From Deltaproteobacteria bacterium (lineage in GTDB: Bacteria; Myxococcota_A; UBA9160; UBA4427), in the NCBI GenBank assembly GCA_029261855.1, contig JAJDAN010000089.1:372001-436000 (forward strand): a stretch of 64,000 bases of DNA, given 5' to 3'. Below are positions 21,521 to 61,329 of this stretch, one piece after another; within the stretch, counting starts at the first letter, position 1; the number at the start of each line of letters is the position of its first letter. The notes beneath the pieces were generated by a model. That model was given only the letters and a program-made list of their open reading frames with translations, was not told the DNA's origin and did no database searches. Position numbers and translations under genes: made by a program.

Positions 21521-22390
21521 ATGTCCGAACCTTCCGTCCAGTCCCTGGAGGCGACCCTCGGTGCGGTGGTCACCGGCGTCGATCTGTCTTCGCTGGGCGA
21601 AGGGGCCTGGCGCGTGATCGAGCGAGCCTTTCACGAACACGCGCTCCTCATCTTCCCCGGCCAGCATCTCGCCTCCGCCGACCAGGTGGAATTCGCCAGG
21701 CGTTTCGGCGAGATCGAGCACGTCGTCGGCGACACCGGTTTCGTCCCGATCAGCAACCAGCGCGAGGACGGCAGCCTGCTCGAGGACGCGCATCCGACGA
21801 TGCAGATCATGATCGGGAACGAGGGCTGGCACACGGACAGCTCCTACATGCCACTCGCCGCAAAGGCGTCAATGCTGTCGGCGCACGTCGTGCCGACCCG
21901 GGGAGGCGAGACCGAGTGGGCCGACATGCGCGCCGCCTACGAGGTACTCGACGACGAGACCCGCCGACGCATCGCCGGCCTCGCCGCACGACACTCGCTC
22001 AAGCATTCCCAGGCGAAGATCGGACACACCGAGCCCGGGGACTTCAGTTACGGCTTCGCGGACGGCGACCCGCCCCTGCGGCCACTGGTCAAGGTGCACC
22101 CCGTCACCAAACGACCGTCGCTATTCATCGGACGCCACGCGTACGGCATCCCCGGTCTCGACACGGCGGAATCGGAGAAGCTGCTCGCCGAGCTGCTCGA
22201 GCAGGCCTGCCAGCCACCGCGCACGCACTGCCACGCATGGCAGCCGGGTGACCTCGCCGTCTGGGACAATCGCTGCGTGCTCCACCGGGCCCGCCCCTAC
22301 GACCACGGTGAGGTGCGGGTGATGGTGCACACGCGCGTTGCTGGAGACCCGGCCAGTGAATGGGCCGAGGGGCTCGCGGAATCCGCGTGA
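21521..22390 (+). CDS. TauD/TfdA-family alpha-ketoglutarate-dependent dioxygenase
   Basis: A 289-residue Fe(II)/2-oxoglutarate dioxygenase. The metal ligands are H104 and D106 (GWHTDSSYM) and H255 in [10 protein letters not shown], with 2-oxoglutarate-binding Arg in [12 protein letters not shown] 21521 is used; the nine codons upstream fall in the leader. Its stop overlaps the GTG of the Rieske oxygenase (GTGA at 22387-22390), so the two oxygenases are translationally coupled and likely attack the same substrate or successive intermediates. The enzyme is divergent from the enoyl-CoA hydratase gene across a 121-bp gap. Substrate unknown. Confidence 0.9.
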
Positions 22391-59924: not shown

Positions 59925-60084
59925 ACCTGGCGCTTCGTCCCCACCGGATCGTCGCTTGAGCGGCCACGCTCCCGCCGGCAACGCACCCGCAATGCGTGAG
60001 CAACCCACCCGCGCGTCCGGCGAACGCAGCGGCAACTCGAGCTTCGTCCGCTAGCGTTCGACACCCAAGAGGGGGCAGCGCGCC

Positions 60085-61329
60085 ATGACCATCGAACGAG
60101 ATGCACTCGGCTTCGACGCACCCGCACCGATTGGCCACCCCGGCCGATCCGGGTTGCCGGCTGGCCGTACGACGGGACCGGAGATCGGGGAGCCGCTTCC
60201 CGGTCTCAGACTGCCGGACCGGGACGGAAGGATCGTCGACCTGCATGCGGACCGCGGCGGAGCACCGGCCGTGGTGGTCTTCTTTCGCTCGGCCGTCTGG
60301 TGACCCCCTTGCTGGACGCAGCTCGGTGAGCTGCGCGACGCCCATCCCGCCTTCGAAGCCGCGGGTGTCAAGCTCTATGCAATCTCCTACGACGATCCGA
60401 AGGCGCTGCGCGCCTTCGGCGAACAGCAGCAGATCCCCTACCCGCTGCTCTCCGATATCGATTCGGAAGTCATCCGTCGCTACGGGATCCTGAACGATCA
60501 GGTCGAGCCCGGCGATGCGCTCTTGTACGGCATCCCGTACCCCGGCGTCTTCGTCAGTGACGGCGACGGGCGCGTCGTCTCGAAGTTCTTCCACGACAGC
60601 TACAAGAAGCGGGACAGCCCGGAGATCCTGCTCGACGCAGCACTCGGGCGGGTCCAGATCGACGAGAGCGCGCCGTGCGCGAACGCAGGGGATGACGCCG
60701 TGCGGGTCACCGCCCAGGTGCGCGGCGGCCGCGGGACGATCCGACAGGGAATCCTGCGACACCTCGTCGTGCGCTTCGCCGTGCGGGAAGGACTGCACAT
60801 CTACGGCGAACCGGTTCTCGAAGGCATGGTCCCCACTCGGGTCCGGCTTTCGGGGCCTCCCGGTCTCGTGGTGGAAGAACCCATCCTGCCGCCGACCGCG
60901 CGCGTCCATCTGCAGAGCATGGGCACCGAGCTTTCCGTCTGGAGCGGGATCGTCGACATCGTCGTGCCCTTCTACGCCGTGGGAGAACTCGCCAGTGAGG
61001 TGCGGCCCCTCGACCGCGATTCGGTGCAGCTCGAGATCGACATCGCGTATCAGGCCTGCAGCGACGACACCTGCCTGCTTCCCCGAACCGAGAAGCTCAC
61101 CCTCGACGTTCCGCTCGAGGTGGTCGACGTGCCATCCCTCGCCCTGCACCGGGGGCACGGTCAACGCGAAGGCGGCTACGACGCGACGCCGCACATGCTG
61201 CGGCTGCTCCTGCGCAAGGTCCGCGCGCATCCGCTCGGGCTCGTGCGCTACGTCTGGAAGAACGGGAAGCTCGAGCTCGCCGCGCGGAGACGCGCGCGAG
61301 CGGCCCGGAAGCCCGCTTCGGGGAGCTAG
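60085..61329 (+). CDS. Probable selenoprotein: UxxC redoxin fused to a DsbD-alpha-like domain
   Basis: A 414-residue protein if the in-frame TGA at 60301-60303 is read as selenocysteine (Sec73). Residues about 30-185 are an AhpC/TSA-type redoxin: GEPLPGLRLPDRDGRIVDL, VVVFFRSAVW, then U-PPC-WTQLGEL, where U occupies the first position of the CxxC active site and C76 the second. It continues with KLYAISYDDPKALRAF and YGIPYPGVFVSDGDGRVV. Residues about 205-355 resemble the N-terminal domain of DsbD (YQACSDDTCLLP, C-x4-C). No signal peptide. ATG 60085. Without Sec decoding, the 72-codon product would be a useless fragment. An 8-bp hairpin follows the TGA. A nonsense mutation is the alternative. 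Confidence 0.82.
60301..60335 (+). other. TGA codon and SECIS-like hairpin
   Basis: The TGA is followed, 13 bases later, by CGCAGCTC (60317-60324), loop GGT (60325-60327), and GAGCTGCG (60328-60335): a perfect 8-bp stem. The loop starts 22 bases after the TGA and contains G and U, as in the E. coli fdhF SECIS, whose apical loop presents a GGU to SelB. The distance lies inside the range usual for bacterial SECIS elements. The stem is also coding sequence, so chance cannot be excluded without alignment. Confidence 0.6.

Follow-up and report, generated by a model that had tools for sequence, protein, structure and literature searches.

A reading frame interrupted by a single TGA

In a 64,000 nt stretch of DNA (called the window below) a long reading frame is interrupted by an in-frame TGA, and a short hairpin lies just behind this codon. 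The locus raises the question whether the TGA ends a small peptide or whether it is read as selenocysteine (Sec), directed by the hairpin. The frame, its conservation, the constraint on the RNA, the machinery genes and the domains, all read from sequence, make it almost certain that this hairpin serves as a SECIS element of the bacterial type and that UGA 60301 is translated as Sec.

The gene has the following features:

60067..60075, + strand: possible ribosome binding site AAGAGGGGG upstream of ATG 60085, proposed from reading the sequence
60085..61329, + strand: predicted selenoprotein gene, from ATG 60085 to the stop TAG 61327-61329; 414 residues with TGA as Sec
60301..60303, + strand: predicted Sec codon TGA, residue 73, opening the UxxC motif
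60310..60312, + strand: TGC, Cys76, which closes the UxxC motif; Cys in all 66 orthologue windows

Apart from the TGA at 60301-60303 and the TAG at 61327 the frame 60085-61329 contains no in-frame stop. Past the TGA it runs for 341 further codons, and the protein match is strong both before and after this codon; the gene product matched its own genome with 100%. Residues 72-76 form the active-site motif W-U-P-P-C (UxxC), in which Cys76 is invariant (alignments A1 and A3). Under the standard code this gene falls apart into a stub of 72 residues plus a fragment, an annotation that is corrected here.

Two domains were assigned to the product:

60184..60579, + strand: AhpC/TSA (peroxiredoxin-like) domain, residues 34-165 (PF00578, 2.4e-29, 102.2 bits, cut-off 26)
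60760..61104, + strand: DsbD_N domain, residues 226-340 (PF11412; the whole protein scores 25.9 bits against a cut-off of 25)
61057..61074, + strand: Cys325 and Cys330 pair (QACxxxxC) of the DsbD_N domain, invariant in alignments A1, A3, and A4

The Pfam scan yielded only AhpC-TSA, Redoxin, DsbD_N, and AhpC-TSA_2, and DsbD_N (PF11412) matched all 19 aligned members. In the full structure model (mean pLDDT 83.6) the first domain adopts a peroxiredoxin fold, with 3hjp_A as best VIA match (Z 17.6, rmsd 2.4, 155 residues). When the C-terminal domain was modelled alone (mean pLDDT 84.3), the top 12 Foldseek matches were N-terminal domains of DsbD/ScsB (best E 8e-6). The likeness to DsbD is taken from Pfam and fold comparison; a sequence comparison of the C-terminal part with PDB chains gave nothing better than E 0.022. 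Two other assignments were rejected. The model for SelL-related redox proteins (NF040769) scored 34.9 bits against a curated cut-off of 120, and DsbD itself has a membrane domain between two periplasmic domains, which is absent from the Pfam scan.

The hairpin downstream of the TGA

The hairpin and its loop are located as follows:

60317..60335, + strand: putative SECIS hairpin CGCAGCTC-GGT-GAGCTGCG with an 8-bp stem, 60317-60324 paired with 60328-60335
60325..60327, + strand: apical loop GGT; GGN in 63 of 66 orthologue windows, while the other three begin with GT

A preliminary description of this DNA had reported a perfect stem of 8 bp that starts 13 bases past the TGA and bears a GGT loop beginning at base 22. 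All of these numbers proved exact (60317-60335, with 21 bases between TGA and loop), and the sequence CGCAGCTC-GGT-GAGCTGCG occurs only once in the window. The proposed resemblance to a bacterial SECIS was borne out as well. The bSECIS model as published (PMC13188914) allows loops of 3-9 bases and stems of 4-16 bp, with a G at loop position 1 or 2, 16-37 nt from UGA to loop, and a minimum free energy of at most -7.5 kcal/mol. The hairpin lies within all of these limits, having a loop of 3 bases, a stem of 8 bp, the loop GGT (with G in first place in all 66 orthologue windows), a spacing of 21 nt and an energy of -12.5 kcal/mol. The context agrees too, in that the UGA is in frame at a Sec/Cys column and the genome contains Sec machinery. 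A scan of the window with Rfam at gathering scores gave zero matches, which says little because a match is not expected for so variable an element.

Conservation of the TGA and of the hairpin

Near full-length orthologues with 52-68% identity to this protein were found in 19 of the 60 genomes searched, these being the nearest relatives with the own genome counted. At the level of the order 30 of 79 genomes gave a match at 1e-60, and the TGA lies inside each of the 33 matches listed. A search of named records with two short peptide patterns returned 63 loci, namely 62 orthologues, all with TGA, and the Cys relative L114. No Cys orthologue of the fusion occurred among these 62 orthologues or the 33 order-level matches listed. 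Since one of the patterns, PPCWTQLG, omits the Sec column, close Cys forms should have surfaced, distant ones not. According to their record titles the orthologues belong to Deltaproteobacteria/Myxococcota, Gammaproteobacteria (Halieaceae, Luminiphilus, HTCC2080, HTCC2143), and Rhodospirillaceae; some of these labels may be wrong because most of the records are metagenome bins.

For counting, identical windows were taken once, and windows with N (L075, L098, L101), the C-terminal partial match L038 and L017, which is unaligned at the Sec column, were left out. The TGA is present at the Sec codon in all 66 distinct N-free orthologue windows. The preliminary description would have given up the SECIS reading if homologues with TGA showed no conserved pairing. 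Instead, at least 7 of the 8 pairs are kept in 66 of 66 windows (8 pairs in 42, 7 pairs in 24). Across the 62 distinct 45-base sequences 95.8% of the cells are paired, versus 20.4-49.0% when the partner is slid along. The covariance check that had been proposed at the same time revealed a compensatory change from G-C to A-U at one pair in 5 of the 62 sequences. This pair shows 5 compensatory cells (as high in 4 of 500 shuffles), 10 G-U pairs, and 2 A-C mismatches, so that covariation supports one pair only, with two mismatched sequences at that very pair. RNAalifold kept 6 of the 8 pairs with only -3.87 kcal/mol and a covariation term of -0.18.

We considered whether the conserved nucleotides could merely reflect the peptide TQLGELR and codon bias, with no RNA element at this place; the TGA would then still encode Sec and the signal would lie elsewhere. 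It is true that synonymous resamples already reach on average 5.67 of the 8 pairs. The observed mean is 7.64, and 25 of the 66 genes taken singly are at or below 5%. Over the 127 conserved columns synonymous variation is lowest in the seven-codon windows starting at residues 77-81, that is, on the hairpin. E82 is encoded by GAG in 66 of 66 sequences and L80 by CTC or CTA only, whereas 5 different codons occur at the conserved Leu97 and 6 at the conserved Leu121. Because the values were normalised by pooling each amino acid across the gene, little can be read from a residue that is rarely conserved, such as Thr78. Moreover, a group of TGA paralogues (L012 group) carries another peptide (VAELRRW) and, at roughly this position, a hairpin of wholly different sequence (stem GTCGCC/GGCGAT), which indicates that position and shape are kept and not the peptide. 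An explanation by peptide and codon bias is thus very improbable.

CTA replaces CTC in L062, L068, L076, L084, L088, L090, L093, L096, L104, L105, and L107, many of them labelled Halieaceae. This exchange turns the 3-base loop into the 5-base loop AGGTG with the G in second place, and it is almost always accompanied by a G-U pair further down the stem. Folded as isolated 19-mers, the variant hairpins have energies of -10.1 kcal/mol (A-U form), -7.9 kcal/mol (CTA form with 5-base loop), and -5.8 kcal/mol (one mismatch).

A run through a SECIS predictor had also been suggested. We implemented the published bSECIS rules in-house, and they passed this hairpin and 59 of 71 TGA orthologues; the remaining 12 miss the limit of -7.5 kcal/mol. 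In the same scan, the only one in which windows L203-L211 were used, 37 of 38 other TGA homologues (paralogues) passed versus 2 of 12 CxxC homologues, which have Cys (TGC/TGT) at the Sec73 column. These 12 Cys controls, 11 plasmid loci and L202, are distant homologues and not orthologues. The plasmid loci stem from 12 of the 25 plasmid records bearing homologues, of which L215 was kept out of the CxxC count because its motif is TxxC. The closest Cys relative seen, L114 from an alphaproteobacterial bin, has VWCPFC with TGC and was matched over residues 26-186 (the Prx-like part) only; its minimum-energy fold contains no such hairpin.

The own genome holds three more peroxiredoxin-like genes with an in-frame TGA and UPYC/UPFC motifs (L011:1642, L012:1615, and L013 on the minus strand). 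L013 fails the bSECIS scan with a weak hairpin of -4.4 kcal/mol.

Weight of the single hairpin

Considered by itself, the hairpin provides weak evidence, as its fold energy is ordinary for the composition and for coding sequence (z -0.94; 40 of 200 dinucleotide shuffles fold equally well). In the window, with 68% GC, perfect 8-bp stems closed by a loop of 3 bases number 8, versus 0-3 per mononucleotide shuffle (n=10); when loops of 3-9 bases are allowed the count is 35. Both strands together have 1,130 TGA triplets, and 7 of these are followed at 16-37 bases by a perfect 8-bp stem with a G at loop position 1 or 2. Those other than 60301, at 22388, 48466, and 54058 on the + strand and three on the - strand, are probably due to chance. 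For this gene 4.7% of the synonymous resamples also reach 8 pairs, and only 4 of the 66 orthologues fall within the lowest 5% of energy among their synonymous resamples because the peptide QLGELR itself favours pairing. It is the conservation, and not the single hairpin, that carries the weight.

These numbers would suit a second alternative, namely that the TGA is a true stop behind a 72-residue peptide, the hairpin an accident of GC-rich coding sequence and the downstream frame a separate gene or a relic: a single-sequence fold that is unexceptional and 35 such stems in one window are what it expects. The PF00578 domain, however, spans the TGA, and the only common in-frame start within the first 396 bases 3' of it is TTG 60523, inside this domain. 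TGA and frame are kept in all 66 orthologue windows, and synonymous variation is depressed exactly at the hairpin. We regard a true stop as even less probable than an effect of the peptide.

Selenocysteine machinery

The own genome encodes a tRNA-Sec (66 bits, anticodon TCA), selA (517 bits), selB (273 bits, above cut-off), and selD (338 bits; L168, G000:C24:63971-64897). Since one TGA lies in frame within selD, its product SelD is probably a selenoprotein too. Among the 19 genomes bearing an orthologue, the own one included, selB is above cut-off in 18; the exception, G026, is 76% complete. Similarly, selA is above cut-off in 8 of the 9 genomes behind the named-record loci, which are mostly gamma- or alphaproteobacterial. 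The ninth, G385 (the genome of L093), has a TGA orthologue while selA was not found in it; the bin may be incomplete or the contig misplaced.

That the UGA is read as another amino acid, in a recoded genome or by a suppressor tRNA, can be dismissed as scarcely credible, since nothing except the in-frame TGA itself speaks for it, whereas the genome has tRNA-Sec (TCA), selA, selB, and selD, homologues have Cys at the Sec73 column, and about a hundred candidate TGA-interrupted frames with a redox-like motif in the window included none convincing by eye besides 60301.

Proposed mechanism and function

In bacteria SelB carries Sec-tRNA to the UGA and binds the hairpin (PMC13188914). Translation of UGA 60301 as Sec would accordingly begin with SelB-GTP and Sec-tRNA(Sec) meeting the ribosome at this codon. 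SelB is predicted to bind the GGU loop of the hairpin, and Sec would be inserted in place of termination. The hairpin would then unfold and be translated as T-Q-L-G-E-L-R. If the codon were not recoded, translation would yield a stub of 72 residues that lacks the catalytic residue.

The product would be a thiol oxidoreductase of the peroxiredoxin-like type, with Sec73 and Cys76 as its UxxC centre and with a DsbD_N-like domain fused to it. Sec73 presumably attacks a peroxide or a disulfide and Cys76 may resolve the intermediate. The Cys325-Cys330 pair probably exchanges electrons with the UxxC centre, in either direction; we give a redox relay between these two sites an even chance.

More speculatively, the fusion might be effectively Sec-only, a soluble relay within one protein (UxxC and DsbD_N Cys pair) that works poorly with Cys at this position and has spread, along with the genes for Sec insertion, among Myxococcota/Deltaproteobacteria, marine Gammaproteobacteria, and Alphaproteobacteria. 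The TGA in every orthologue found and the invariant Cys pair suggest this idea, which we nevertheless hold to be rather unlikely. Strictly Sec-only use is disfavoured by a published description of such a fusion with a motif worded as U/CxxC (PMC9402790).

At this locus an RNA signal shows cleanly through the constraint on the coding sequence and can be contrasted between Sec and Cys relatives; the example comes from lineages known mostly via metagenomes.

Comparison with known systems

The preliminary description had further likened the loop to that of the E. coli fdhF SECIS, and this likeness is a loose one. The fdhF loop sits a few bases closer to the UGA than the loop found here. Both are in-frame hairpins just 3' of a UGA with G and U in the loop, and this part of the comparison stands. 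In fdhF, U17, G23, and U24 are named as important (PMC8659212); a bulged U in the 5' arm is missing here, the stem being continuous. Measured against the bSECIS consensus as given in PMC13188914, the position, the spacing of 21, the 3-base loop beginning with GG, the 8-bp stem, and the energy are alike. No rule of the model is broken by this hairpin, whereas some orthologues lose one pair and miss -7.5 kcal/mol.

With respect to the protein, the second domain resembles DsbD in part. In the N-terminal domain of E. coli DsbD the Cys spacing is longer than CX4C. The fusion has CX4C and shows no membrane domain in the Pfam scan, but fold and Cys pair are like those of the DsbD N-terminal (alpha) domain (PDB 1vrs, 3pfu). 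In DsbD, judging from the title of 1vrs, this domain partners the C-terminal domain.

Prx-like thiol:disulfide oxidoreductase selenoproteins with PF00578 and UxxC appear in Table 1 of PMC13188914, with WP_010940744.1 as listed representative, and a Prx-like selenoprotein family was reported in the Sargasso Sea set (PMC1088965). PF00578 and UxxC are common to these proteins and to the one described here; the known entries are listed by PF00578 alone, while here DsbD_N follows. A Prx-like protein (U/CxxC) fused with Pfam11412 has been described from GOS metagenomes (PMC9402790). By its published description it has the same two domains, the U/CxxC motif, and extra conserved Cys. From the U/CxxC wording Cys forms seem to exist there, whereas every orthologue found here has TGA. 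The Prx-like UxxC family and this fusion are thus both already published. New are this well-supported locus, the analysis of its RNA conservation, and the all-TGA pattern among the orthologues seen.
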